A DNA stretch of 33,078 nucleotides, taken from NCBI GenBank assembly GCA_020629205.1, contig JAHDDV010000006.1, forward strand, positions 7,379 through 40,456, in the 5' to 3' direction. The notes beneath the pieces were generated by a model. The model ran no database searches and had not been told where the DNA came from. It worked only from the letters and a program-made list of their open reading frames with translations. Below, in pieces: positions 8,179 to 26,529 of the stretch; the first letter of the stretch is position 1; each line of letters begins with the position of its first letter. Origin of the DNA: Chitinophagales bacterium. GTDB taxonomy: Bacteria > Bacteroidota > Bacteroidia > Chitinophagales > UBA2359. The position numbers and the translations under genes were made by a program.

Positions 8179-9084
8179 ATGAGACAAATTACAATGTTTA
8201 TTCTTCTATTAGTCGTAAGTGTTTGGTCCTGTGCTCAAGATGCGCCCACAGCTATCGACTACACAGAGAAGGAGTTAAAAACCATACAATTGTTTGAGCG
8301 TATGGATCTTCAAGGTGTCGATTTGTCTGGGCCTTTGATGTATGGCTACTTTTTTCTTGGATCAGACAAGGGGCAACTGGAGTCGATGTCCTCCTCGCTA
8401 CAATCGGCGGGATATACACAGGTTAATCTTTCAGAAGCAGAGAACGAGCAATTTTTTCTTCATCTACAGAAAGTGGAGCAAATGTCAGGGCAAAGCATGG
8501 TTAATCGCAGTGTCGAGCTAGAGTCTCTCTGTTCCGAGTATAGGGGAGCAAGTTATGATGGATGGGACGTTGGGGCTGTGGATCCGATGGCAGAACTTAC
8601 TACTATGACTCAATTCGAGCAGGGTATAGCGAAAGTCGCAGATGCGGATTTGTTTGAACGCTCTATGCGGATTTTCGATCAAGAGCTGTATGAGCATGCA
8701 AAATTTGCCTTTAATCTATGTATTGAGAAGGAAATTCAACAAGATACCGCCTACTATAAGCGAGCCTTTTGCGAGTTGCAAATGGGAGATCGAGATCAGG
8801 CAATACAGAGTTGGAAGAAGGCCGTTGAATTGAATCCTGGCTATGAAAAAGCCATCTTCAATCTGGCAGCGACTTTCTATGATATTCTTGACTTCGATGC
8901 TTGCATTCAGCATTATGAAAAGGTATTGGCATTGAATCCGAATAATGATCAGGCTTGGTATGGCATAGCCGCAGCTCAGTATGGCCAAAAAGACCACGAA
9001 GCAGCAAAGGCAAGCTGTCAGAAAGCCCTGGAGCTGAATCCTCAAAATCTGCTGGCTCGGCAAATGATGAAGTACTTTCGCTAA
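8179..9084 (+). CDS. TPR repeat protein with N-terminal signal peptide
   Basis: A 301-residue exported protein, probably a lipoprotein or periplasmic protein: the N-terminus MRQITMFILLLVVSVWSCAQD has a charged start, a hydrophobic core and a Cys at position 18. The lipobox VWSC is imperfect because Trp at -2 is unusual. Residues 25-155 are not recognised. Residues about 165-300 contain three to four tetratricopeptide repeats, with clear units AFCELQMGDRDQAIQSWKKAVELNP, FYDILDFDACIQHYEKVLALNP and AAQYGQKDHEAAKASCQKALELNP. TPRs mediate protein contacts; the partner is unknown. The gene has its own leader with a hairpin and converges on the ABC permease gene only 14 bp away. Confidence 0.85.
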   Translation: MRQITMFILLLVVSVWSCAQDAPTAIDYTEKELKTIQLFERMDLQGVDLSGPLMYGYFFLGSDKGQLESMSSSLQSAGYTQVNLSEAENEQFFLHLQKVEQMSGQSMVNRSVELESLCSEYRGASYDGWDVGAVDPMAELTTMTQFEQGIAKVADADLFERSMRIFDQELYEHAKFAFNLCIEKEIQQDTAYYKRAFCELQMGDRDQAIQSWKKAVELNPGYEKAIFNLAATFYDILDFDACIQHYEKVLALNPNNDQAWYGIAAAQYGQKDHEAAKASCQKALELNPQNLLARQMMKYFR

Positions 9085-13229: not shown

Positions 13230-15134
13230 ATGAATGTGCAATACAACAGCCTCTTGACAGAAGAGGATATTAGCTTGTTTCAGGCCGGAATGCATACCTC
13301 GCTATACGAAAAGATGGGTGCGCAAATATGTGATCATGAGGGTCAGTCCGGCCTGCAGTTCACCGTCTATGCCCCAATGGCTAAGCGAGTTGAAGTCATG
13401 GCTGATTTCAATGCTTGGGACAGCCAGCATCACCAGCTTTACCGAAGGGCTGACTACTCCGGAATCTGGGAAGGATTTATTGCAGGGGTGGGTAGTGGAG
13501 CTCTGTATAAGTATCGTATCTATTCGAGCAGAGACGATAAGATTCGAGAAAAAGCAGATCCCTTTGCCTTTCACACCGAAATGATGCCCAAGTCTGCTTC
13601 GGTGGCCTGGAATCTCGATTTTGATTGGTCGGATGATGCCTGGATGGCAACAAGAGGCAAACGACAAGCAATTGATCAGGCGATCAGCATCTACGAACTG
13701 CATATTGGCAGTTGGAAGAAGGAGAAAGGGGAGTCCTTATCTTATAAGGTATTGGCAGGACAATTGGTAGATTATCTGCTGGACATGAACTTCACTCATG
13801 TAGAGTTTTTGCCGCTAACGGAGTATCCCTATTATCCCTCTTGGGGCTACCTTCCTACCAGCTTTTATGCACCGACTTCTCGCTTTGGATGCCCACAGGA
13901 GTTGATGTATCTGATTCAGCAACTTCATCGAGCTGGAATAGGCGTGTTTCTGGATTGGGTGCCTGGGCATTTTTCGCAAGATGAGTTTGCATTGGTGGAT
14001 TTTGACGGATCACCCTTATTCGAACATCCTGATCCAAGAAAGGGCAAGCATCCTGATTGGGGCAGCTTAGTGTTCAATTACGAGCGCAATGAAATTCGGT
14101 CATTTCTTCTGTCCAGCGCTCATTTTTGGCTTCGGTATTACCATCTTGACGGGCTTAGAGTGGACGCAGTTACTTCGATGTTGTACCTGGACTATTCGCG
14201 AGGACCGGGAGACTGGGAGCCCAATGATCTAGGGGGAAATGAGTATCTGGCTGCGGTGGAGTTTCTGCAAAAGTTGAACACCAGCGTCTACGGAGAATTT
14301 CCTGATGTGCATATGATTGCTGAAGAGTCGACTAACTACCCAGGGGTAACAGCAGCAGTTCATGACAATGGTCTGGGCTTTGGTTTCAAATGGATGATGG
14401 GCTGGATGAATGATGTATTGCGCCATTTCCCGAGAGATCCCATCTTTCGAAAGCATCATCGAAATGAGCTGACCTTCTCCTTCACCTACATGTACAATGA
14501 GAATTACATTATGCCCTTGTCGCATGATGAAGTAGTGCATGGCAAGTCTTCTATGATCTATAAGATGTACGGAGATGAGTGGCAAAAATTTGCCAATCTA
14601 CGGCTATTGTACGGCTACATGTACACTCATCCGGGCCTTAAGTTGCTCTTTATGGGTGCAGAATTTGCGCAGACTTACGAATGGAATTTCGATCATGAGC
14701 TGCGATGGGACTTGCTACAGTACGATGCTCATCTTGGTGTACAAAACCTGGTCAGGGATCTCAATTCTTTGTACAGAAGGGAAAAAGCGCTGCATCAATT
14801 GAATTTTGATCCGGATGGTTGGCAATGGGTAGATTTTGATGATCCAGAAATCGATATTCTTTGCTTTTTACGGCATTCAGAGACAGAGGTACTGTTGGTG
14901 ATTTGTAACTTTGCCCCGCTGAATTTTGAAAGCTACGAGGTAGGGGTGGAGCAGGAGTCTAAGTGGGAGGAAGTTTTCAATTCCGACAAGCGAGACTATT
15001 GGGGGACGGGCTTCTTAAATGAATCTGTGATTAGTTCAGAGGAGGAAGCTTGTCATGGATTTGAACATAAGATCAAGGTGAAAGTACCTCCACTAGGTGT
15101 TTCGATTTTAAAACGAAGGGAGCTAGAAGAATGA
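13230..15134 (+). CDS. glgB: 1,4-alpha-glucan branching enzyme (GH13)
   Basis: Makes the alpha-1,6 branches of glycogen. It has 634 residues: an N-terminal CBM48-like domain (about 30-130, FTVYAPMAKRVEVMADFNAW), the GH13 barrel (about 150-520), and a C-terminal beta domain. Catalytic residues are visible: nucleophile Asp312 in GLRVDAVTS, acid/base Glu365 in MIAEESTNYPGV, and Asp433 in PLSHDEVVHGK. It lacks the extra N-terminal domain of E. coli GlgB, common for the shorter type. The ATG at 13230 follows the TesA-like gene by 39 bp, so read-through from that gene is possible. The stop TGA overlaps the glgA start (ATGA), showing tight translational coupling. It is the first gene of the glycogen operon. 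Confidence 0.96.
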   Translation: MNVQYNSLLTEEDISLFQAGMHTSLYEKMGAQICDHEGQSGLQFTVYAPMAKRVEVMADFNAWDSQHHQLYRRADYSGIWEGFIAGVGSGALYKYRIYSSRDDKIREKADPFAFHTEMMPKSASVAWNLDFDWSDDAWMATRGKRQAIDQAISIYELHIGSWKKEKGESLSYKVLAGQLVDYLLDMNFTHVEFLPLTEYPYYPSWGYLPTSFYAPTSRFGCPQELMYLIQQLHRAGIGVFLDWVPGHFSQDEFALVDFDGSPLFEHPDPRKGKHPDWGSLVFNYERNEIRSFLLSSAHFWLRYYHLDGLRVDAVTSMLYLDYSRGPGDWEPNDLGGNEYLAAVEFLQKLNTSVYGEFPDVHMIAEESTNYPGVTAAVHDNGLGFGFKWMMGWMNDVLRHFPRDPIFRKHHRNELTFSFTYMYNENYIMPLSHDEVVHGKSSMIYKMYGDEWQKFANLRLLYGYMYTHPGLKLLFMGAEFAQTYEWNFDHELRWDLLQYDAHLGVQNLVRDLNSLYRREKALHQLNFDPDGWQWVDFDDPEIDILCFLRHSETEVLLVICNFAPLNFESYEVGVEQESKWEEVFNSDKRDYWGTGFLNESVISSEEEACHGFEHKIKVKVPPLGVSILKRRELEE

Positions 15135-16564
15135 AAAGAGTATTACATGTCAGCACGGAGTGCTATCCAGCGGCAAAGGCCGGGGGAATGGGTGACGTGG
15201 TAGGGGCATTGCCAAAGTATTTCCCGGAGCAGGACATTCAAGCCTCAGTGGTAATTCCACGATACGACCTTCCTTGGTTTCAGGAGCAACCCTTTGTATC
15301 TGTTTATCAAGGCTTATTCTATTTAGGGCTGGAGCCTGTACAGTATGAGATATTGGCTCTCGATTCTGGTATTCTAGGCTATCCATTCTACTGTGTCAAC
15401 ATACCTGGGAAGTTTGATCGCAACTCTGTCTATTTGGCCGACAATGGCGAGGGTTTTCGCGATGAGCTGCAGCGTAACATTAGTTTTCAACGAGCGGTAC
15501 TACATTGGTTGAATGACAGTGGAATTGGGTTTGATTTGGTGCATTGCCACGATCATCAAGCAGGATTGATACCCTTCTTCATGAAGCATGGCTATGAATT
15601 CAAACGACTGCGGAGGATGCCATCCTATCTGACCATTCACAATGCCGCCCATCACGGCCTCATGCCCTGGTCGGCAAGACACCTACTGCCTGATTTTCAC
15701 GACAATGATGGTGGCTTGTTGGAATGGGATTCGGTCATTAACTCTTTAGCCGCCGCAATCAAATGTTGTTGGCGATTTAGTACCGTATCACCGAATTACC
15801 TGACTGAGATTCAGGATCGACTCCCCTCCTTGAATACTTTGCTTAAAGATGAATGGGCAAAATCACGAGGAATATTGAACGGCATTGATACCACAGTTTG
15901 GAATCCAAGAACAGATCCAAAAATCAAGCAAAAGCTAGGGCGATCCTGGAAGCAATTTAAAGGCAAGAACAGAGACTATACTTGTCGAGAGCTTGGGCTA
16001 GATCCGGATTTGCCGCTCTTTGTATTTATCGGTCGGTTGGCTCAGCAGAAAGGGGCAGATCTGATTCCTCCGGCGATCGAGGAAGTTCTGGCCAGAGGTG
16101 GTTCGGCCAACTTCATTATACTTGGGACAGGAAGTAAAGACATCGAAGCAAAGCTGCAGGAATGTCAGCAACGTCATGATAGCAGGGTTAAGTCACTGCT
16201 AATGTATAGTGAAGACGTTGCACATCAATTGTATGCCTCGGCTGACTTTCTCTTAATGCCATCCAGATTCGAACCTTGTGGACTCAATCAGATGTTTAGC
16301 ATGTATTATGGAACCATCCCAATTGTGCGGTCCACAGGTGGTCTCATCGATACGGTAAAGGACATAGGAGAAAAGGGTTGCGGCATTCGATTCAATGATG
16401 CTACTTCCAGCGATTTGGCCAATGCCATTGTGCGTGGCTTGATGCAATATGCCGATCAGAAAGGCTTTGCAAAGTTGATTCGCAAGTGTGCCAAGCAAGA
16501 TAATTCCTGGCAACAATCGATCAGCATCTATGCCGAGGAGTATAGAATGTTGTGGTCAGTGTGA
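15131..16564 (+). CDS. glgA: Glycogen synthase (GT5)
   Basis: Extends alpha-1,4-glucan chains from ADP-glucose in the cytoplasm. The 477 residues match the family. The N-terminal ADP-glucose motif KAGGMGDV is at 16-23 (family KxGGLxDV), the N-terminal Rossmann domain includes HCHDHQAG, and the C-terminal domain has FIGRLAQQKG and SRFEPCGLNQM with Glu381, the equivalent of the E. coli catalytic-site Glu377, followed by STGGLIDTV. The start ATG overlaps the glgB stop by 4 bp. GlgC follows 44 bp downstream and supplies the ADP-glucose. Confidence 0.96.
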   Translation: MKRVLHVSTECYPAAKAGGMGDVVGALPKYFPEQDIQASVVIPRYDLPWFQEQPFVSVYQGLFYLGLEPVQYEILALDSGILGYPFYCVNIPGKFDRNSVYLADNGEGFRDELQRNISFQRAVLHWLNDSGIGFDLVHCHDHQAGLIPFFMKHGYEFKRLRRMPSYLTIHNAAHHGLMPWSARHLLPDFHDNDGGLLEWDSVINSLAAAIKCCWRFSTVSPNYLTEIQDRLPSLNTLLKDEWAKSRGILNGIDTTVWNPRTDPKIKQKLGRSWKQFKGKNRDYTCRELGLDPDLPLFVFIGRLAQQKGADLIPPAIEEVLARGGSANFIILGTGSKDIEAKLQECQQRHDSRVKSLLMYSEDVAHQLYASADFLLMPSRFEPCGLNQMFSMYYGTIPIVRSTGGLIDTVKDIGEKGCGIRFNDATSSDLANAIVRGLMQYADQKGFAKLIRKCAKQDNSWQQSISIYAEEYRMLWSV

Positions 16565-16608
16565 ATCAATCAAGAAATTCACGATATTGACAAAAACAAA
16601 AAGGCACT

Positions 16609-17898
16609 ATGAGTATTCAAAAGACAGTTGCAGTAATCCTTGGAGGAGGAGAGGGTAGGAGGTTGTATCCCTTAACCGCGGACCGTTCTAAACCGGCCGT
16701 TCCTATATGTGGGAAATACCGTTTGATTGACATACCGATAAGCAATTGTCTGAATTCTGATTTACGAAGGATGTTTGTGTTGACACAATTTAATTCCGCC
16801 TCACTAAATCGGCATATTCGCACAGCCTATCATTTTGATACCTTCTCCAGCGGTTTTGTTGATCTCCTGGCCGCAGAGCAGACCAGGAGCAATCAGGGAT
16901 GGTTTCTCGGTACAGCAGATGCTGTAAGACAGTCTTTCCCAAAGTTTACGGCCTTGGACTACGATTATATGATGATCCTATCTGGCGATCAACTATATCA
17001 GATGGATTTTCGGGATGTTATAGCCCGGCACCAGGCCACCGGAGCCGACTTGACAGTAGCTACTATTCCCGTAAATGCGGAGGATGCTACTGGCTTTGGA
17101 ATCATGAAAGTCGACAAGGAGGACACCATTGTTAATTTTGTCGAGAAGCCTTCAGCGGAAGAACTCCCAAATTGGAAATCCCCTCTGGACGCTAAGTTTA
17201 CCAGTGGAGGCAAAGACTATCTGGCCTCAATGGGTATCTATGTATTCAGTCGTGAGGCTATGTTCCGATTATTTGATGAACGGCCTTCGGCACTGGATTT
17301 TGGAAAAGAGCTAATCCCATTTGCCGTCAACTCCGATAGCTATAAGGTCGCAAGTTACCCTTTTGGAGGCTATTGGACCGATATTGGGAGCATTTCAAGC
17401 TACTTTGCGGCAAATCTGTACTTGACCTCTTATCTTCCCGCCTTCAATATGTATGATAATGTCAATCAGATTTATACCAGAGGTAGAATGCTATCACCTT
17501 CAAAAATATTTGGGACGCGATTGACACATGCCTTAATTTCGGATGGTTGTATTATCCATGCTGATCGGGTCTCTCATAGTGTCATCGGTATTCGCTCGCG
17601 AATAGGCCAGGGTACGGTGATCAACCAATCAATTGTATCAGGTAATGACTATTATCAGGCCCTGAACAAAATGAAAGAAGAGCCTGATAAGCTGCTTGGC
17701 ATTGGCAAGAATTGCTACATTGAAAGGGCAATCCTTGATAAAAACGTAAAAATTGGAAATGATGTGTCTATTGTTGGACATAGGAGTCTGAAAGATCAGG
17801 ATGAAGCCCTCTACACCATAAAAGACGGGATCATCATTATCAAACGAGCAGCGGTCATACCAGATGGCACAAGCATCGGTAGACCGATTAGTGGATGA
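16609..17898 (+). CDS. glgC: Glucose-1-phosphate adenylyltransferase
   Basis: Makes ADP-glucose from ATP and glucose-1-phosphate, the committed step of glycogen synthesis. It has 429 residues, as usual. The N-terminal nucleotidyltransferase motif GGGEGRRLYPLT (12-23) leads into RSKPAVPICGKYRLIDIPISNC; SGDQLYQMDF and FVEKP mark the sugar-phosphate and metal site. The C-terminal third is a left-handed beta-helix with hexapeptide-like repeats (SRIGQGTVINQSIV, KNVKIGNDVSIV), the usual oligomerisation and regulatory part. The ATG is preceded by an A-rich stretch instead of a strong Shine-Dalgarno, typical of Bacteroidota. It is third in the operon glgB-glgA-glgC-GH31. Confidence 0.96.
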   Translation: MSIQKTVAVILGGGEGRRLYPLTADRSKPAVPICGKYRLIDIPISNCLNSDLRRMFVLTQFNSASLNRHIRTAYHFDTFSSGFVDLLAAEQTRSNQGWFLGTADAVRQSFPKFTALDYDYMMILSGDQLYQMDFRDVIARHQATGADLTVATIPVNAEDATGFGIMKVDKEDTIVNFVEKPSAEELPNWKSPLDAKFTSGGKDYLASMGIYVFSREAMFRLFDERPSALDFGKELIPFAVNSDSYKVASYPFGGYWTDIGSISSYFAANLYLTSYLPAFNMYDNVNQIYTRGRMLSPSKIFGTRLTHALISDGCIIHADRVSHSVIGIRSRIGQGTVINQSIVSGNDYYQALNKMKEEPDKLLGIGKNCYIERAILDKNVKIGNDVSIVGHRSLKDQDEALYTIKDGIIIIKRAAVIPDGTSIGRPISG

Positions 17899-17934
17899 GA
17901 ATCGCCTATTTGCGATTGAAAAAAATAGAAAGAC

Positions 17935-20343
17935 ATCGAAAAGTTAGAACCCACAGAACCTCAACAGAAAGAATTTTATCCAGGAAAGATCACCGGACAT
18001 AAGTGGAAGGGACACTACCTGGAAATTACTACAGATAACAAGCTTCGGCTTCGGATTTACGTATTGGAAGCCAGCATATTTCGTTTCCGTTATGCTACAA
18101 ACCTCCTCTTTGAGGAGGACTTCAGCTATGCTATCAATCCGGGTTACCGACCTGGGTATCCAGTTCCACAATTGGAGGAGACAGATCAGCATCTATTGAT
18201 TAGCACAGAACAATTACGTTGTGTAGTCAACAAGAGCAATCTGAAAATCACCATGTTGGACAGGGATTATCATATCCTTTGTGAAGACGAAAAGGGCTTT
18301 CATTGGGAAGTGCATCCCCAGTTCGGTACCGATATCGTTCAAACTAGCAAGAAAGTACAGGAAGAAGAGGCATTCTTTGGTCTGGGCGATAAGGCAGCTG
18401 ACCAAAACCTGAAATCGCAGCGCTTCACTAACTGGGGAACAGATACATATGGCTTTGGCAAGAAGTCTGACCCACTCTACAAAAACATCAATTTCTACTA
18501 TGGATACCATCATGAAAAGGCTTATGGTATCTTCATGGATAATAGCTTTAGATCCTTCTTTGATTTCGGTTCCGAGCGAGCTGATGTTTGCAGCTTTTGG
18601 GCAGACGGAGGGGAGATGAACTACTATTTCATTGGAGGTCCGGCTTTAATGGATGTGGCCCTTCGGTATGCCTTGCTGACAGGCACTCCAGAAATGCCGC
18701 CCTTATGGGCTCTTGGCTATCAGCAATGCAAGTGGTCATATTATCCGGAGGCCAATGTACGAGAAATTACCAGTAAGCTACGCGAATACAAAATCCCCTG
18801 CGATGCCATTTATCTTGACATTGATTACATGGATGGGTTTCGATGCTTTACCTGGGATAAGGAGAAATTTCCTGATCCCAAAAAAATGATAGCGGATTTT
18901 GCAGATGATGGCTTCAAGACCATGGTTATCATTGATCCCGGAATCAAGATTGACTTTGATTACAGCGTATTCACCGAAGCACTGGAAAAGGGTTACTTCT
19001 GTCGACGTTCCGACGGAGCTTATGCGCAAGGGAAAGTCTGGCCAGAAGATTGCCTTTTTCCTGACTTCACCAGAGCAGATGTAAGAGAATGGTGGTCAAC
19101 ACTTTTTGAAGGTTTGATCAAGGATCAGGGTGTAGCGGGAGTCTGGAATGATATGAACGAACCCGCTCTCTTTGAAGTGGAAAGCAAAACCATGCATCTG
19201 GATGTCCGCCATGATTATGATAATCATCCCTGCAGCCACAGAAAGGGACACAATGTCTATGGCATGCAGATGGCCCGGGCTACCCTTGCCGGGGTCAAGA
19301 GCTTTGCAGGAGATAAACGCCCGCTGGTAATAACGAGATCAGGCTATAGTGGCTTTCAGCGATTTAGCTCGACCTGGACAGGCGATAATGTGGCTACTTG
19401 GGAGCATTTGGAAATTGCCCATTTGCAGTGCCAGCGATTGGCCATTTCCGGAGTATCTTTTAGCGGCTCAGATGTGGGTGGATTTACCGAGCAACCAAGT
19501 GGCGAATTGTATGCCAGATGGGTCGCATTAGCTGCATTCCATCCCTTTTTCCGAACCCACTCCTCTGGAGATCATGGCGATCAGGAGCCTTGGTCCTTTG
19601 GAGAGGAATATATGGACTATGCAAGAGTATTTATCAACTTGCGCTATCGCTTGCTTCCCTATTTCTACACTTGCTTCTTCCAGCATCACCGCTTTGGTCT
19701 TCCGATGTTGCGTCCAATGCTCTTTAATGAAGGAGTATCCAATCAGAAATTTGTGGATCGCTCGGATGAGTGCATGTTAGGGGATCATCTTTTGTTTTGT
19801 CCGGTTCTTAAAGAAGGTGCGCAAAGCCGTTCTGTCCTGCTGCCCGAAGGGGATTGGTTTGACTATTGGACCAATAAGAAGTACTCAGGAGGTAAATCTT
19901 ACAAGATTTCTGCTCCCCTTGATCGAATTCCCTTGTTTGTTAAAGCTGGAGCAGCGATCCCGCACTTTCCGCTCATGCAATATGTAGGAGAGACCAGAGT
20001 CGAAGAGTTGAAGCTGCAAGTCTATTATGCCCAAGGAGAGCATCAAAGCAAACTATATGCCGATGCCAATGACGGTTATGCCTATCAAAAACAACAGTTT
20101 AGATGGTCGGAGTTTCTGCTTAAGGCCAATGATGATAGAAGTAGTTTCGAACAGAGTCTCACGGGAGATTTCGAGCCAGAGTATGCTCAGATCCGAATTG
20201 AGTTTATAGGATTTCCCCAACAACCTGATACGGTGGAGGTTGACGGGCATGTATTAGAAGCTCATTCTATGGAGGGCCAAAATATTTTCTTTGTGAATGT
20301 GAACTCCGCGTTCAAGAAAATACTACTTTTGCACCGATTTTGA
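17935..20343 (+). CDS. GH31 alpha-glucosidase, probable AUC start
   Basis: Hydrolyses terminal alpha-glucosidic bonds, here probably in glycogen or maltodextrin turnover. GH31 landmarks: nucleophile in GVWNDMNEP (Asp406 in this numbering, nt 19150), acid/base in WTGDN (Asp484, nt 19384), and FFRTHS in the active-site rim. No signal peptide is seen, so it is cytoplasmic, next to glgB/A/C. The start is odd. The first conventional start codon in frame is TTG at 18064, but the 43 codons before it read as coherent family-like N-terminal sequence (EFYPGKITGHKWKGHYLEITT). The frame is closed by TAG at 17926. Between them there is no ATG, GTG or TTG; ATC at 17935, preceded by AGAAAG, gives IEKLEPTEPQQKEF and 802 residues, about the usual length. 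I take 17935 as the most likely start, with an AUC codon or a base change as explanation. Confidence 0.85.
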   Translation: MEKLEPTEPQQKEFYPGKITGHKWKGHYLEITTDNKLRLRIYVLEASIFRFRYATNLLFEEDFSYAINPGYRPGYPVPQLEETDQHLLISTEQLRCVVNKSNLKITMLDRDYHILCEDEKGFHWEVHPQFGTDIVQTSKKVQEEEAFFGLGDKAADQNLKSQRFTNWGTDTYGFGKKSDPLYKNINFYYGYHHEKAYGIFMDNSFRSFFDFGSERADVCSFWADGGEMNYYFIGGPALMDVALRYALLTGTPEMPPLWALGYQQCKWSYYPEANVREITSKLREYKIPCDAIYLDIDYMDGFRCFTWDKEKFPDPKKMIADFADDGFKTMVIIDPGIKIDFDYSVFTEALEKGYFCRRSDGAYAQGKVWPEDCLFPDFTRADVREWWSTLFEGLIKDQGVAGVWNDMNEPALFEVESKTMHLDVRHDYDNHPCSHRKGHNVYGMQMARATLAGVKSFAGDKRPLVITRSGYSGFQRFSSTWTGDNVATWEHLEIAHLQCQRLAISGVSFSGSDVGGFTEQPSGELYARWVALAAFHPFFRTHSSGDHGDQEPWSFGEEYMDYARVFINLRYRLLPYFYTCFFQHHRFGLPMLRPMLFNEGVSNQKFVDRSDECMLGDHLLFCPVLKEGAQSRSVLLPEGDWFDYWTNKKYSGGKSYKISAPLDRIPLFVKAGAAIPHFPLMQYVGETRVEELKLQVYYAQGEHQSKLYADANDGYAYQKQQFRWSEFLLKANDDRSSFEQSLTGDFEPEYAQIRIEFIGFPQQPDTVEVDGHVLEAHSMEGQNIFFVNVNSAFKKILLLHRF

Positions 20344-20396: not shown

Positions 20397-21107
20397 ATGA
20401 AGGAGCAATACAAAAAGTGGTATTCCCCCACTTTAAACATGGACACAGAGCTACTGATTTTTGGACACTCCGGTAAGCCGGTCATCCTGTTCCCGACCAC
20501 GAAAGGTGCACACTATGAGAATAGGGACTTCAAGATGCTGGAAGCAGCAAAGTGGTTCATCGAAAAGGGAATGATTACTGTCTATTGTCCATCTAGTGTT
20601 GATGCCCACAGCTGGTACAATAAATCAATTCCGCCTGCAGAACGCGTAAAAAACCATATCTGGTACGATCGATTCATCCTCAATGAAATCGCCATACCGG
20701 CCATGCAGCGGTCTGGCCATTACAAGATTTGTGCGGCTGGACCTAGTTTTGGAGGCTTTCACGCGCTCAACTTCGCCTTCAGACATCCGGACAAAGTGAG
20801 TCACCTCATGTCCATGAGTGGAGCTTTTGAAGTCAAGAGCTTTGTCGACAACTACTATGACGAAAACGTCTATTTCACCAATCCGGTCGACTACATGCCC
20901 AATAACAATCACCCTGATCTTTGGCGTATGAACATCGTATTGGGAGTGGGTGAGCACGATATTTGCTTGGATGCCAGCCGACGAATGTCCGGCATCCTTA
21001 GCAAGAAAGGAATCAGTCATTGGCTGGACATCTACAAAGGAGAAAAGCATGATTGGCCGCTTTGGAGAAAGATGTTCCCCAAGTACATTTCGCACATGAT
21101 GCACTAA
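20397..21107 (+). CDS. Esterase-family alpha/beta hydrolase
   Basis: A 236-residue cytoplasmic hydrolase of the putative esterase (PF00756-like) group. ATG 20397 (MKEQYKKWYSP) is preferred to GTG 20358 because the family begins with this KWYSPxL segment. The catalytic triad is apparent: Ser117 in GPSFGG, Asp188 in GVGEHD, His218 in GEKHDWPLW. The FGHSGKPVILFPTTKG segment provides the oxyanion strand. Its exact substrate is unknown; members of this fold also include acyltransferases. It is the first of four same-strand genes with two ATP-grasp proteins and an amidotransferase-like protein, 54 bp after the GH31 gene and 28 bp before the next, so it may release or transfer an acyl product made by the ligases. 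Confidence 0.82.
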   Translation: MKEQYKKWYSPTLNMDTELLIFGHSGKPVILFPTTKGAHYENRDFKMLEAAKWFIEKGMITVYCPSSVDAHSWYNKSIPPAERVKNHIWYDRFILNEIAIPAMQRSGHYKICAAGPSFGGFHALNFAFRHPDKVSHLMSMSGAFEVKSFVDNYYDENVYFTNPVDYMPNNNHPDLWRMNIVLGVGEHDICLDASRRMSGILSKKGISHWLDIYKGEKHDWPLWRKMFPKYISHMMH

Positions 21108-21135
21108 TAAGCAATCGAAAATAATTCCATAAGCA

Positions 21136-22293
21136 ATGAAGAAAATAGGAATACTGTTTGGACAGGAAGACACCTTTCCAAATGCTTTTATCGAAAGAGT
21201 AAACTCAAAGAACATCAAAGGGATCACTGCCGAAGCAGTGAGAATTGATGTGGTACAGCAAAACGCGCCTTTGGATTACGCGGTGATTATTGACCGAATT
21301 TCTCAGGATGTACCATTCTATCGGGCAGCATTAAAAAATGCCGCTATGACTGGTACAGCCGTCATCAATAACCCATTCTGGTGGTCCGCCGACGAGAAGT
21401 TTTTCAACAACTGTCTCGCTGAGAAGATCGGCGTACCTGTCCCAAAGACAGTACTGCTGCCTTCCCATCACCGACCAGATGATACCTCAGAAAAGTCGTT
21501 TCGAAATCTGGTATTCCCAACGGATTGGGAATACATCTTTGACTACATCGGATTCCCGGCCTACATGAAGCCTTATTCCGGTGGAGGTTGGAAGAATGTC
21601 TACAAGATTAATGATCCTGGACACCTTTTCAGTACCCATGCGGAAACTGGCCAATTGGTCATGATGTTGCAAGAGGAAATCGTCTTTGACCACTACTTCA
21701 GAAACTACTGTCTGGGTGGTGATCGAGTGCTGGTAATGCCTTATGAGCCAAGAAATCCACACCACCTACGTTACAAAGTGGACAATCCTTGTACAGACAA
21801 GAAGATCCTGAAGAAAGTAGAGGAATTGACCATCAAGCTTAACCAGGCGCTCGGATATGATTTTAATACTGTTGAGTTTGCAGTAAGAGATGGCATACCT
21901 TATGCTATTGATTTCTGTAACCCTGCTCCGGACGCAGATCGTCACTCTGTCGGTGAAGAGAATTTTGAGTGGATTGTGGAGAATGCAGCCAACTTTGCCA
22001 TCGAAAAAGCACAGCAGCACAAGGAAGGTAAGATGAACTTGACCTGGGGTGAGTTCATGTCTGATTCTGTACAAACTAAGCCGGTCAAAAGAGTCGTCCG
22101 CAAGCTTAGAAAGGTTACCAAGAAAACGGAAGCCAAGCCAGTAGCAAAGAAAGCAGCAAGCAAGAAAGTTGCTGCTAAGAAAGCGAGCCCTAAGAAGTCG
22201 ACTGCTAAAAAAGCAACGGCAACTAAGACCAAGACCGCTGCTAAAAAAGCCGCTCCTAAGAAGCGAGCTACGGCAACTGCGAAGAAGAAGTAG
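21136..22293 (+). CDS. ATP-grasp carboxylate-amine ligase (RimK-like) with histone-H1-like tail
   Basis: A 385-residue protein in two parts. Residues 1-310 are an ATP-grasp ligase: an N-terminal Rossmann-like substrate domain (MKKIGILFGQEDTFP), ATP-binding Lys145 in FPAYMKPYSGGGW, the hinge MMLQEEIVFDHYF, and metal ligands Glu247 (NTVEFAVRDG), Asp259 and Asn262 (AIDFCNPAPD). Such enzymes join a carboxylate to an amine through an acyl-phosphate. Residues about 315-385 are extremely basic: 26 Lys and 17 Ala among the last 71 residues with one acidic residue, in repeated AKKA/SPKK/AAKK units like eukaryotic histone H1 or chlamydial Hc1. The tail may bind nucleic acid or another polyanion, or be the substrate of modification. 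No frameshift is needed to read it. The cluster context suggests a small-molecule amide ligase. Confidence 0.85.
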   Translation: MKKIGILFGQEDTFPNAFIERVNSKNIKGITAEAVRIDVVQQNAPLDYAVIIDRISQDVPFYRAALKNAAMTGTAVINNPFWWSADEKFFNNCLAEKIGVPVPKTVLLPSHHRPDDTSEKSFRNLVFPTDWEYIFDYIGFPAYMKPYSGGGWKNVYKINDPGHLFSTHAETGQLVMMLQEEIVFDHYFRNYCLGGDRVLVMPYEPRNPHHLRYKVDNPCTDKKILKKVEELTIKLNQALGYDFNTVEFAVRDGIPYAIDFCNPAPDADRHSVGEENFEWIVENAANFAIEKAQQHKEGKMNLTWGEFMSDSVQTKPVKRVVRKLRKVTKKTEAKPVAKKAASKKVAAKKASPKKSTAKKATATKTKTAAKKAAPKKRATATAKKK

Positions 22294-22296
22294 ATA

Positions 22297-22389
22297 GCTT
22301 ATATTCGCCCCAAAAGTGGCGCATTTAAGCAAGGATATGTATCTTGTGTAGCTAGGACAGAAGTTAGCGACTATCTGCTTCTGTCCTGG
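22297..22389. promoter_or_regulatory. Two hairpins in the leader of the amidotransferase-like gene
   Basis: The 186-bp gap between the ATP-grasp and amidotransferase-like genes holds two stems. The first is GCTTA (22297-22301) with TAAGC (22326-22330), enclosing CGCC/GGCG (22306-22309 with 22318-22321). The second is a perfect 10-bp stem, AGGACAGAAG (22354-22363) with CTTCTGTCCT (22378-22387), extended by a G-U and a C-G pair, with a 14-nt loop. Neither is followed by a T-run. They could reduce read-through, process the mRNA or protect an end. Confidence 0.45.
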
Positions 22390-22479
22390 ACTACCAAGAG
22401 TTTGGGATCTTGAGACAAAGAGCTTGCGCTCTGGATATCTTCTGCCTGAATTTCTGATGTTCATTCTAATACGGTTCTG

Positions 22480-23304
22480 ATGAAGCAAAAGAAACTGCAA
22501 TTGGCTGTCCTCAATATGTACGCAGGACAGGAAAACAAAGGCATGGGCTGCATTCGGGAAATTGTCTCCCGATACGATAATCAGCTCGAAATGACAGAGT
22601 TTGATGTCCGGGTAACTGATGACGTACCAACCATCGATTACGATCTGTATATCTCTTCCGGTGGTCCCGGCAATCCGTTGGAAGGCAATGGAATTTGGGA
22701 CCGGAAATTTGGCGCCCTTTTGGATCAGGTACTTGCCTTTAATACACAAAGCAATAGTCGAAAAAAGTACTTCTTTCTCATCTGCCATTCTTTTCAAATG
22801 GCATGTGCGCATCTCAAGCTAGGAGATATCACCAAACGTCATTCAACCTCCTTTGGGGTTCATCCTGTGCATAAAACAGAAGCTGGTGATTTGGACCCGA
22901 TTCTACACGGTTTGCCAGATCCCTATTATGCCGTTGATAGCCGTGACTGGCAGTTGATTCAACCCAATCTGGATCATTTCGCTGATCATGGCGCTACCAT
23001 CTTGTCGCTGGAGAAGATTCGCGATCATGTGGCCTATGAAAGAGCAATCATGGCGGTGCGTTTTTCAGATGAAATGGTCGGTACCCAGTTTCACCCGGAA
23101 GCGGATTCGGAAGGCATGCTTTGGTACATGAGACAAGAAGAAAACAAACGAAAGATTGTTCACACTTTTGGTGAAGACAAGTACCTCCTAATGATGGAGC
23201 GTTTATTAGACCCAGCAAAAGTGGAGTTGACGCAAAACAGTATTCTACCCAATTTTATCGAAACAGCCATCGAAAAGCTGTCCATTGAATTGGTAAACTC
23301 CTAG
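22480..23304 (+). CDS. Class I glutamine amidotransferase-like protein
   Basis: A 274-residue protein with the GMP-synthase-type class I GATase fold. The triad can be placed at Cys102 in LICHSFQ, His205 and Glu207 in GTQFHPEAD; SSGGPGNP (59-66) is the usual oxyanion region. The nucleophile elbow is atypical: the family pattern GxCxGxQ reads LICHSFQ, so both glycines are replaced. The extra C-terminal 60 residues are not recognised. It may hydrolyse glutamine to supply ammonia, or, like the PuuD branch, hydrolyse a gamma-glutamyl amide directly. It is 9 bp upstream of the next gene, so they are co-transcribed. Confidence 0.82.
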   Translation: MKQKKLQLAVLNMYAGQENKGMGCIREIVSRYDNQLEMTEFDVRVTDDVPTIDYDLYISSGGPGNPLEGNGIWDRKFGALLDQVLAFNTQSNSRKKYFFLICHSFQMACAHLKLGDITKRHSTSFGVHPVHKTEAGDLDPILHGLPDPYYAVDSRDWQLIQPNLDHFADHGATILSLEKIRDHVAYERAIMAVRFSDEMVGTQFHPEADSEGMLWYMRQEENKRKIVHTFGEDKYLLMMERLLDPAKVELTQNSILPNFIETAIEKLSIELVNS

Positions 23305-23313
23305 CCCAAGCTC

Positions 23314-24513
23314 ATGCACTCTCAGGCACGTCAGCAATTCAATACTAAGTTCACAGAAGAACAATACCAGAAACTGCTGAGTTCATTGGCAGTTAATCAT
23401 CGCTCAGTGGGGCCTTGCTTCCGAGTGTCCGAAACCCCGGTCTTTATCCCGCGTGCCCTCAAGGAGACGCTGCTGGAAGCCTGCGAAGAAATAGGTTCTA
23501 TCATTTTTGAACCCGACTTCAAAGCCCGTACCAATGGAGCCCTGGAAAGGGGAGGAGTCTTTGTCCCCAATGAAGATGATCATTGCCCTTTTATCCAAAT
23601 GGACTTCGGAATTTGCAAGCTCGAAGATGGTACTTTGCTGCCTCAGTTGATCGAGGTTCAAGGCTTTCCTTCTCTGTATTGCTTTCAGGATGTTTTGGCA
23701 GCTTCTTACCAAAAGCACTTTGATGTGCCTGAGCAGTTTTCGCATCTTCTGGGAGGAATAGACTCCAATGAGTACGTCGAGATGTTGCGAAGCATCATTG
23801 TGGCTGAAGCCAATCCAGAAAATGTAGTCATCCTGGAGGTTGAACCAGAGAAGCAAAACACCCTCATCGACTTCATCTTTACAGAAGCTAAGCTAGGTAT
23901 CACAACCATCTGTATCAGCGATCTGATCAAGAAAGACAAAAAGCTCTACTATAAGAATGAAGAGGGCAAAGACATTCGAATTGATCGCATTTACAATCGG
24001 GTGATTTTTGATGAATTGCATAAGCGCGATGACCTCGAACGCTCCTTTTACTTTCACGAAGAAGTGGAGGTTACCTGGGTCGGACATCCTGCCTGGTTTT
24101 ACCGCATCAGCAAGTACATCTTACCATTAATAGAAAGTAAATACAATCCTCCAAGTTTGTTTGTGGATCAGTTGGAAAAGTATCCGGATGATTTGGACCA
24201 ATACGTGCTGAAGCCGATTTTCTCCTTCGCCGGAAGCGGAGTCAACTTAAACATCACGGCCAAAGATCTCGATGCTCTTGAAGACAAAAGCAATTACATC
24301 CTGCAACGCAAAGTCCAATACGATGCGCTGATTCCCACCCTCGACGATCCGGCAAAATGTGAGGTCAGAATGCTGCTGCTCTGGCCAAAGGATCTCAATC
24401 GACCAATTGTTGTCAACAATTTAGTACGTCTCACAAAAGGGGATATGGTAGGCATCAAATTTAATAAGGACCGCACCTGGGTTGGTGGTAGTGTTGGATT
24501 TTTTGAAAAATAA
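23314..24513 (+). CDS. ATP-grasp-like ligase resembling glutathionylspermidine-synthetase fold
   Basis: A 399-residue protein without a confident family name. The C-terminal third shows ATP-grasp signatures: Lys300 in YVLKPIFSFAGSGVN, a hinge-like YILQRKVQYDALIP, Arg352 in CEVRMLLLWP and Asn368/369 in VVNNLVRLTKG. The order of parts, an early acidic-site strand QLIEVQGFPSL, then WFYRISKYILPLI, then the KP...G loop, resembles the glutathionylspermidine synthetase/YgiC fold, where W..NK..LP and the same KPxxxxxG loop occur. I infer an amide-forming ligase. No signal peptide. It follows the amidotransferase-like gene by 9 bp, and an arginine-decarboxylase-like gene lies downstream, so an amine substrate is plausible. 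The stop is followed directly by a dispersed repeat. Confidence 0.65.
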   Translation: MHSQARQQFNTKFTEEQYQKLLSSLAVNHRSVGPCFRVSETPVFIPRALKETLLEACEEIGSIIFEPDFKARTNGALERGGVFVPNEDDHCPFIQMDFGICKLEDGTLLPQLIEVQGFPSLYCFQDVLAASYQKHFDVPEQFSHLLGGIDSNEYVEMLRSIIVAEANPENVVILEVEPEKQNTLIDFIFTEAKLGITTICISDLIKKDKKLYYKNEEGKDIRIDRIYNRVIFDELHKRDDLERSFYFHEEVEVTWVGHPAWFYRISKYILPLIESKYNPPSLFVDQLEKYPDDLDQYVLKPIFSFAGSGVNLNITAKDLDALEDKSNYILQRKVQYDALIPTLDDPAKCEVRMLLLWPKDLNRPIVVNNLVRLTKGDMVGIKFNKDRTWVGGSVGFFEK

Positions 24514-24700
24514 GGAGCCCAGCTGCAATGGCTCGCTCCAATACCCGTCTTGCTCTCCGCTAATATTCGGCACCTGCCTGCTTGTTCCTGCTTCCCTGCC
24601 TGCCGTCTCTCCGCATGCGCTCCGAGCCATCATGCAGGGGCAGTCACTGGCGCATGCAGGCACCTCATTCCGCTGCGATCAAGGCTATTTTTCACTGCCT
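24514..24700 (+). repeat. Dispersed intergenic repeat, copy A
   Basis: Starts right after the stop of the ATP-grasp-like gene with GGAGCCCAG. Conserved boxes shared with copies B and C, in order: CTCCGCTAAT, CTCCGCATGCGCTCCGAG (near 24608-24625), GGCAGTCAC (near 24639), and ATTCCGCTGCG before GGCTAT (24683). The copies differ at many positions and by small indels. It is GC-rich compared with the flanks. The reading frame across it resembles the frame across copy B only because the DNA is homologous; it is not a gene. Confidence 0.7.
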
Positions 24701-24794
24701 GAAGCACGTGGCAAGGGGCGGATGGCTATTCGTATGAAAATTTCTGCTGGATAAATCTCAATTTGCCCAAAAGCTACGGAGAAAGGCCGGTGAT

Positions 24795-24971
24795 CAATAG
24801 CCCAGATCGGACCGGATATGAGTGGCCCTGATGCCGTGGTGACTGCCGGATGGCTGCTGGCTCGACGATAGGAGAGACAGCAGACACCCTGCAGGAACAG
24901 GCAGCTGGGACAGGAATAGAAGGGGAGAGCTGGACGACCGGTTGATCGAGGCAGTGCCGCTGAGCTCCAAA
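24795..24971 (-). repeat. Dispersed intergenic repeat, copy C (inverted relative to A)
   Basis: On the minus strand this reads TTTGGAGCTCAGCGGCA, then CTGTCTCTCC, CGAGCCAGCAGCCATCC, GGCAGTCACCACGGCATCAG and GGGCTATTGAT, matching copies A and B in the same order. It shares the 603-bp gap with copy A in the opposite orientation, about 100 bp apart. It is followed by A-rich sequence (24967-24983). The remainder of the gap, 24984-25116, is AT-rich and should hold the promoter of the decarboxylase gene, but no strong box is visible (a weak TAATTTAA lies at 25084). Confidence 0.65.
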
Positions 24972-25116
24972 AAAATCATAAAAAAAGACTGCCCAATTTC
25001 CTTCCAGGGAGAACGAGAAAATCTGTAAATTTCTTTCCTTTTGTGGCTTGTTTATCCGCAATTATTGCCATTTTTGTCGGCACTAATTTAATGCATTTTC
25101 AACCGCAGGATGCGCC

Positions 25117-26529
25117 ATGAAAAACACCTATTTTGATCTTATCGATCAGAGCTATCTATTTCCTCAGGTAGGATTTGATTTACAAGATGGCGATCTCACT
25201 TTTTACGGTATTTCCCTCAAATACCTGATCAAAAAATATGGTACTCCATTCAAGCTGATGTATTTGCCGCGGATAGGTCAGCAGATTCGCAGGGCTCGAA
25301 ACCTGTTTAATCGTGCGATAAAGAAGCACAATTACAAAGGCAAATACCACTATTGTTATTGTACCAAGTGCTGCCATTTTTCGCATGTGCTGAAGGCTGC
25401 TTTGAAGGAGAAAGTGCACTTGGAAACCTCTTCCTCTTTTGATATTGATCTGATTTACAGACTGGTGAAAGAAGGAGACCTCAGCAAAGACACTATCGTC
25501 GTGCACAATGGCTATAAGACAGATGATTACTTGCGAAAGATTCTGGATTTGGGACGAAGTGGATTTAAGAATTCGATTCTTGTACTCGACTCCAAGACAG
25601 AGGTGATGCGCCTAAAGACGCTTTGTCAAGGAACGGATACTGTTGTAAAGGTAGGCATAAGGATGGCTATTCAGGAAGAGCCGCAGTCCTCCTATTACAC
25701 TTCAAGATTGGGAATTCCGGCTGCTGAAATTTTGGATTTTTTTGAACAAGAGATCGAGGGAGATGATCAGCTCAAACTGGAGATGGTACACTTCTTCATT
25801 GATTCGGGGATCAAAGACAATATGTACTACTGGGGGGAGTTTCAGAAGGCACTGAAGCTTTTTGTAGAGCTCAAACAGAGATGTCCTGAATTGCATGCGC
25901 TCAATTTGGGTGGAGGATTCCCAATTCGTAACAATCTGGGATTCAAATACGACTACGAGGCTGTTATCAACGAGATTGTCGGCGGTATCAAATCCGTTTG
26001 TGATGAAGCCAATATCCAGGAGCCGGACATCTTTACGGAGTTTGGGAAGTACACTGTTGGTGAAAGTGGGGCAATTATTTTCTCGGTGTTGGAGCAGAAG
26101 CAGCAAAACGATACTGAACTCTGGTACCTGGTAGACAATAGCCTTATGAATACCATTCCGGACGCCTGGTCTATATTTGAAAAATTTATTCTACTTCCAA
26201 TCAATAAATGGGACAATGAATATGCACGAGTAAGCATTGGTGGAATTAGTTGTGATCACAACGATTACTACAATTCTGAAGATATGAATCAACAGTTGTT
26301 TTTGCCGACTTATGAACCTACAGAGGAGGAGCCCTTGTACATTGGCTTTTTTCACACAGGGGCTTATCAGGATTCCATCAGTGGTTATGGCGGTATCAAA
26401 CATTGTCTGATTCCTGCACCAAAGTTGATTATGATCGACAAAAACGAGAAAGGCGACTATATCGATACCGTCTATCGCAATGAGCAGACGGTAGAGGAGA
26501 TGCTGGATATTCTAGGTTATCTGAAGTAG
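25117..26529 (+). CDS. Arginine decarboxylase-type PLP enzyme (fold III)
   Basis: A 470-residue fold-III PLP decarboxylase of the Orn/DAP/Arg family, cytoplasmic. The N-terminal barrel has the PLP lysine Lys84 in YCYCTKCCHF and the glycine loop LNLGGGFPI (262-270). The C-terminal beta domain has Cys379-Asp380 in GGISCDHND (catalytic Cys and specificity Asp region) and HTGAYQ (413-418) with the Tyr that contacts PLP. In this lineage proteins starting YFDLIDQSYxFP are generally taken as biosynthetic arginine decarboxylase (agmatine for polyamines); that is family knowledge, and carboxynorspermidine or diaminopimelate decarboxylase are weaker alternatives. The usual EPGR-type phosphate-binding segment reads TEFGKYTV. 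Its own promoter must lie in the repeat-bearing gap upstream. A strong bidirectional hairpin follows. Confidence 0.85.
   Translation: MKNTYFDLIDQSYLFPQVGFDLQDGDLTFYGISLKYLIKKYGTPFKLMYLPRIGQQIRRARNLFNRAIKKHNYKGKYHYCYCTKCCHFSHVLKAALKEKVHLETSSSFDIDLIYRLVKEGDLSKDTIVVHNGYKTDDYLRKILDLGRSGFKNSILVLDSKTEVMRLKTLCQGTDTVVKVGIRMAIQEEPQSSYYTSRLGIPAAEILDFFEQEIEGDDQLKLEMVHFFIDSGIKDNMYYWGEFQKALKLFVELKQRCPELHALNLGGGFPIRNNLGFKYDYEAVINEIVGGIKSVCDEANIQEPDIFTEFGKYTVGESGAIIFSVLEQKQQNDTELWYLVDNSLMNTIPDAWSIFEKFILLPINKWDNEYARVSIGGISCDHNDYYNSEDMNQQLFLPTYEPTEEEPLYIGFFHTGAYQDSISGYGGIKHCLIPAPKLIMIDKNEKGDYIDTVYRNEQTVEEMLDILGYLK

Follow-up and report, generated by a model that had tools for sequence, protein, structure and literature searches.

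Introduction

ATP-dependent ligases of the ATP-grasp fold have been described in several settings, such as the peptide-spermidine ligases YgiC and YjfC, glutathionylspermidine synthetase (Gss), the glutathione synthetases, the RimK, LysX and ArgX enzymes, and the L-amino acid ligases. Here we analyse four neighbouring genes in a stretch of 33,078 nucleotides from a Chitinophagales bacterium (assembly GCA_020629205.1, contig JAHDDV010000006.1, positions 7,379 to 40,456; hereafter the window). They encode an esterase-fold hydrolase (EST), a RimK/LysX-fold ATP-grasp ligase (ATPG1), a protein with the class-I glutamine amidotransferase (GATase) fold (GAT) and a second, circularly permuted ATP-grasp ligase (ATPG2), and in related genomes they stand in a larger module that commonly includes GCS2, a YbdK-type carboxylate-amine ligase.

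Several components of this module recall described systems from which they also depart. ATPG2 is like YgiC/YjfC and Gss in its whole fold (Z 24 to 26 over about 345 residues) and in the ATP-binding motif YVxKPIFS, but it is only 12-13 % identical to them, scores below the GSP_synth cut-off and has SFAG where YgiC has the SREG loop; in addition, it belongs to a multi-ligase run, whereas E. coli ygiC and gss do not. ATPG1 shares the fold of RimK, LysX and ArgX (Z 18 to 20.6) and a pattern resembling the E...DxxN metal site, yet its identity to them is 14-18 %, its score lies far under that of the RimK family and its run has no LysW-like carrier. Another system combines a glutamine-synthetase-fold ligase with an adjoining GATase-fold protein, possibly a hydrolase, much as GCS2 and GAT are combined here (PMC2588565); it involves another ligase family and other phyla, whereas the present module adds two to three ATP-grasp ligases and esterases and, in the window, is without GCS2. 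In the fungal E-64 cluster (Cp1B), an ATP-grasp enzyme of the glutathione-synthetase fold (9cjn, Z 22.4 to ATPG2) joins an acid and an amino acid within a small ligase cluster (PMC12568646), but 9cjn and ATPG2 are 14 % identical, the second E-64 ligase is of the ANL type, and that cluster has a dedicated oxygenase and occurs in different organisms. Finally, a third ligase of the module, ATPG3, is similar to the L-amino acid ligases (BL00235, 4wd3), with the difference that it is encoded outside the window and clusters with an esterase and an M17 peptidase. Our literature search found no paper on this gene set, and none of the profile libraries searched names the pathway; part of it may stand predicted in a 2009 survey, which reportedly covered ATP-grasp and glutamine-synthetase-like amidoligases.

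Results

It is close to certain that EST, ATPG1, GAT and ATPG2 work together. Named genomes were scanned for ATPG1, and 80 loci around this gene were obtained. GCS2 is present in 74 of these, GAT in 68, and EST and ATPG2 in 66 each, and 59 keep the order EST-ATPG1-GCS2-GAT-ATPG2 at median spacings of 9 to 46 nt, an arrangement found in records from Flavobacteriales, Cytophagales, Sphingobacteriales and Saprospiraceae. EST adjoins ATPG1 in 64 loci (median gap 32.5 nt), and GAT and ATPG2 are neighbours at a median distance of 9 nt. Genome-wide counts were made in 296 Bacteroidota genomes, in which ATPG1 has 108 carriers, ATPG2 92 and GAT 71. ATPG1 and ATPG2 occur together in 89 genomes, ATPG1 alone in 19, ATPG2 alone in three and neither in 185, while ATPG1 and GAT are found together in 69. 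The two ligase genes lie less than 6 kb apart in 49 of the 89 genomes, representing 15 families, and are unlinked yet co-present in the remaining 40. Counted by family, both are present in 26, ATPG1 only in 10, ATPG2 only in none and neither in 15 (p ~1e-6, with the cells read by hand). The arrangement of ATPG1 and ATPG2 is thus far beyond chance. The original prediction, made from the sequence of the window, had proposed the four genes as an undescribed functional unit, and linkage kept across Bacteroidota orders bears this out: the homologues are not scattered, nor did profile searches resolve the genes into well-characterised enzymes. No match to ATPG1 was found among 72,556 plasmid records, which gives no sign of plasmid spread. 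In three loci, a Uma2-type nuclease-like gene (about 205 aa, judged by eye) is inserted between ATPG1 and GCS2.

Several further genes accompany the module. ATPG3, closest to the L-amino acid ligase 4wd3 (E 1.9e-18), occurs in 66 of the 296 genomes, and all 66 carriers have ATPG1, with none among the 188 genomes that lack it. Together with EST2, a second PF00756 esterase with a weak match to S-formylglutathione hydrolase, and the leucyl aminopeptidase M17, ATPG3 flanks the module in many loci, and an ATPG3-M17 pair lies beside it in 17-18 named loci. In the genome of the window, EST2, M17 and ATPG3 stand together on another contig (C425), which is only 4.3 kb long. Two ATPG3-like genes each are present in five genomes (G030, G125, G219, G272 and G290). 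Another ligase, the circularly permuted ATP-grasp protein ATPG4, is found between ATPG1 and GAT in seven loci, from lineages that have both of these genes and are without ATPG2; EST2 follows GAT in three of the seven and ATPG3 comes next in one; the run in deep lineages reads EST-ATPG1-ATPG4-GAT-EST2. Over its length, ATPG4 is similar to 3n6x, a putative glutathionylspermidine synthase (E 9.9e-10).

The window itself lacks GCS2, ATPG3, M17 and EST2. GCS2 (PF04107; 542 bits with the NCBIfam carboxylate-amine ligase, whose cut-off is 371; solved relative 1r8g) is the usual, though not universal, occupant of the space between ATPG1 and GAT, where the window has a gap of 186 nt. A hidden copy was ruled out by this gap and by a whole-genome search with PF04107, which gave no match in the genome of the window, in a genus-mate (G296) or in a further family member (G308), and did match the carriers in other families. 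Although the genome of the window is 90.8 % complete, a true loss of GCS2 in this lineage is likely, because the relatives agree; the product of the lineage may therefore be a variant.

The four window genes are intact open reading frames on one strand with EST upstream (20397-24513; Table 1), separated by 28 nt (EST-ATPG1), the gap mentioned above (ATPG1-GAT) and 9 nt (GAT-ATPG2), and a further 603 nt separate ATPG2 from a decarboxylase gene; all five reading frames are intact and lie where the original prediction had put them. For EST, the mechanical reading frame begins at an upstream GTG (20358), but the N-terminus conserved in relatives, MKExYxKWYSP, aligns at ATG 20397, and we take this ATG as the start because the common N-terminus of the homologues begins there. 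Promoter and terminator consensus matches were not above those in shuffled sequences.

Table 1. Coordinates and assignments of the genes discussed, in positions of the window
Feature	Position	Strand	Length (aa)	Assignment
EST	20397..21107	+	236	cytosolic alpha/beta-hydrolase, PF00756 putative-esterase type; triad Ser117-Asp188-His218
ATPG1	21136..22293	+	385	RimK/LysX-fold ATP-grasp ligase; core ~1-310 + Lys/Ala-rich tail
ATPG1 C-terminal tail	22066..22290	+		residues 311-385, Lys/Ala-rich, histone-H1-like composition
GAT	22480..23304	+	274	class-I glutamine-amidotransferase fold; Cys102-His205-Glu207
ATPG2	23314..24513	+	399	circularly permuted ATP-grasp ligase, YgiC/YjfC / glutathionylspermidine / eukaryotic glutathione synthetase fold
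decarboxylase	25117-26529			fold-III PLP enzyme, nearest arginine decarboxylases

The catalytic residues of both predicted hydrolases are complete. The EST triad, already pointed out in the original prediction, is invariant in 23 of 23 aligned homologues, and Cys102, His205 and Glu207 of GAT are kept in 24 of 24 sequences. EST scores over the cut-off of PF00756 (29.7 against 22 bits) and GAT over that of PF00117 (27.8 against 22.8 bits), both of which are broad families, whereas ATPG1 stays under the cut-off of the RimK family TIGR00768 (34.3 against 143.4 bits) and ATPG2 under that of GSP_synth, PF03738 (17.8 against 29.3 bits); for none of the four proteins does a profile score pass the threshold of a family whose reaction is known. 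GAT had been likened to PuuD-type gamma-glutamyl hydrolases, an assignment that we could not uphold, as Pfam Peptidase_C26 gave no match at E values up to 0.01 and PF00117 was the only Pfam family to match. Six proteins submitted to PADLOC gave no match, leaving a defence system unsupported.

The two ATP-grasp assignments, in contrast, were confirmed by fold. The predicted structures are confident (mean pLDDT 93.0 for ATPG2 and 84.6 for ATPG1), and Foldseek searches were run for both in addition to the structural comparisons given here. The ATPG2 model matches YjfC best (Z 25.9, rmsd 3.6 over 345 residues), followed by YgiC (25.5), homoglutathione synthetase (24.5), human glutathione synthetase and E. 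coli Gss (24.4 each), so that its top matches, all at Z 24 to 26, are tied or nearly so; a profile comparison with YgiC/Gss aligned the ATP-binding stretch alone, at a probability of 18.7 %. The ATPG1 model is closest to RimK (Z 20.6, rmsd 2.9 over 261 residues) and to LysX/ArgX (Z 19.8). These modelled folds support ATP-dependent carboxylate-amine ligation by ATPG1 and ATPG2, not any given substrate. The acceptor of ATPG2 may be an amine and could equally be an amino acid, because the glutathione synthetases score almost as high as the spermidine ligases. The C-terminal tail of ATPG1 ranges from zero to more than 150 residues among 80 relatives and, since only part of them carry it, is dispensable for the core reaction. 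In two loci (L106 and L125), a stretch resembling a helix-hairpin-helix comes after this Lys/Ala-rich tail (in L106 it includes KIEGIGPKI), which is odd for a small-molecule ligase.

A replacement at the place of GAT bears on the role of this protein. An M29 aminopeptidase is encoded in six of the 296 genomes, all of which have ATPG1 and ATPG2 and none of which has GAT (p 0.003 among the 89 genomes with both ligases, without correction for shared ancestry). Five of these genomes have M29 in the run at the place of GAT, adjoining ATPG2, and the remaining one (G208) carries it at another site. A further 29 genomes have ATPG1 and ATPG2 and neither GAT nor M29. That a peptidase takes the place of a GATase-fold protein suggests that GAT hydrolyses an amide rather than supplying ammonia, and GAT probably acts on the product as a thiol hydrolase. 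In another family, a thiol peptidase resembling GATases has already been described next to a ligase of the size of GCS2 (PMC2588565).

Other neighbours of the four genes in the window do not appear to belong to the module. The original prediction had joined to it a fold-III decarboxylase of the arginine type, and the enzymatic assignment stands in so far as arginine decarboxylases are its nearest solved structures, even though it remains under the SpeA cut-off (TIGR01273; 161 against 624 bits). Its membership in the unit does not stand: all 25 good-quality relatives examined have the decarboxylase, and in 12 loci from the same family or order, several of them on short contigs, its surroundings contain no module gene. 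We therefore reject it as a fifth member and regard it as most likely a chance neighbour. Upstream, a glgB-glgA-glgC glycogen operon followed by a GH31 alpha-glucosidase (13230-20343) shares the strand of EST and ends 53 nt ahead of it. A link to these genes was considered and rejected as chance or weak, as glg genes flank the module in few loci (L032, L168 and L039), with glgA-glgC in L168 and glgC in L032. The window also encodes a protein (8179-9084) in which an RraB-like domain at the N-terminus is combined with TPR repeats in the C-terminal part.

Discussion

Given the conserved linkage, the co-occurrence, the folds, the complete catalytic residues and the gene replacement described above, we think it reasonably probable that the cytosolic module serves both to synthesise and to hydrolyse a small non-ribosomal peptide or pseudopeptide, and that the window holds a four-gene share of it. 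The first building blocks would be joined by ATPG3, encoded elsewhere in the genome, and in most lineages by GCS2, whereupon the RimK/LysX-like ATPG1 would add a residue to a carboxylate activated as acyl phosphate. ATPG2, or ATPG4 where ATPG2 is missing, might then activate the C-terminal carboxylate and couple it to an amino acid or amine, by analogy with YgiC/YjfC, glutathionylspermidine synthetase and glutathione synthetase. GAT, or M29 in its stead, and the M17 aminopeptidase would hydrolyse amide bonds of the product or of by-products, and EST and EST2 could take off an acyl group linked as ester, thioester or amide.

Several points weigh against this proposal. We infer the reactions, their order, the substrates and the product from genes alone, and a small-molecule product is not proved by the ATP-grasp fold, which also occurs in kinases and in the modification of ribosomal protein by RimK. 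Class-I GATases often feed ammonia to a partner ligase instead of hydrolysing a product, and the replacement by M29 rests on six genomes only. M17 aminopeptidases are general enzymes whose linkage could have another cause. In addition, the genome-wide counts sample a single phylum, and shared ancestry inflates them when they are read as independent events, an effect that counting by family lessens and does not abolish.

Among the alternatives, a polyamine or agmatine conjugate, with ATPG2 coupling a peptide to the amine and GAT and EST hydrolysing the conjugate, appears unlikely but survives best. The best structural matches of the ATPG2 model are the peptide-spermidine ligases YjfC and YgiC, and ATPG4, which replaces ATPG2, matches a putative glutathionylspermidine synthase; nevertheless, the homoglutathione and human glutathione synthetases match nearly equally, ATPG2 falls under the GSP_synth cut-off, no polyamine gene accompanies the module and the adjacent decarboxylase is unlinked to it in relatives. 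The original prediction had named an amine such as agmatine or a polyamine as part of the product, and this is not sustained, as its sole support is an ATPG2 fold that glutathione synthetases share equally.

Glutamine-dependent amidation is the less probable of the two, although the Cys-His-Glu triad of GAT is complete and its gene is the close neighbour of ATPG2. GAT would here feed ammonia to an ATP-grasp partner to form a small-peptide carboxamide; the scheme could be likened to carbamoyl phosphate synthetase and its product compared to the osmolyte N-acetylglutaminylglutamine amide. Against it, M29, which is not expected to supply ammonia from glutamine, occurs only in the absence of GAT and sits at its place in the run, and 29 genomes hold both ligases with neither protein.

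We give still less credence to a second low-molecular-weight thiol, in which a gamma-glutamyl-cysteine-like step by GCS2 would be followed by ATP-grasp extension, with the esterases acting like S-formylglutathione hydrolase. The YbdK type of GCS2, the glutathione-synthetase fold of ATPG2, peptidases as in glutathione turnover and the weak match of EST2 are consistent with it. However, BshC of the bacillithiol pathway is present in 291 of the 296 genomes, which makes the proposal less likely because a thiol is already supplied, and the lineage of the window is without GCS2. Bacillithiol derivatives are known from Bacteroidetes (PMC6282198).

Protein tagging, in which ATPG1 would modify either the C-terminus of a protein, as RimK does, or a carrier protein, as LysX does, and peptidases would trim the tag, is the most doubtful of all, since RimK and LysX/ArgX are indeed the closest folds to ATPG1 but the median gaps leave no room for a conserved carrier or precursor gene, the RimK score is far too low and the remaining ligases are of small-molecule types. 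A RiPP or graspetide cluster was ruled out, the gaps being too short for a conserved precursor.

The non-ribosomal peptide that we favour may be the product of a phylum-wide Bacteroidota pathway in which four families of amide ligases and dedicated peptidases and esterases make an undescribed intracellular small peptide, such as an osmolyte, a redox or a signalling compound, common in free-living members, a possibility that we put forward tentatively and with less than even confidence. More than a third of the sampled Bacteroidota hold ATPG1, and most of these carry much of the module; if it does make a common metabolite, a compound would have escaped notice in bacteria that are dominant in many soils and waters. 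The linkage data narrow down which genes to delete and which enzymes to assay, and the module offers new stand-alone amide ligases for biocatalysis.

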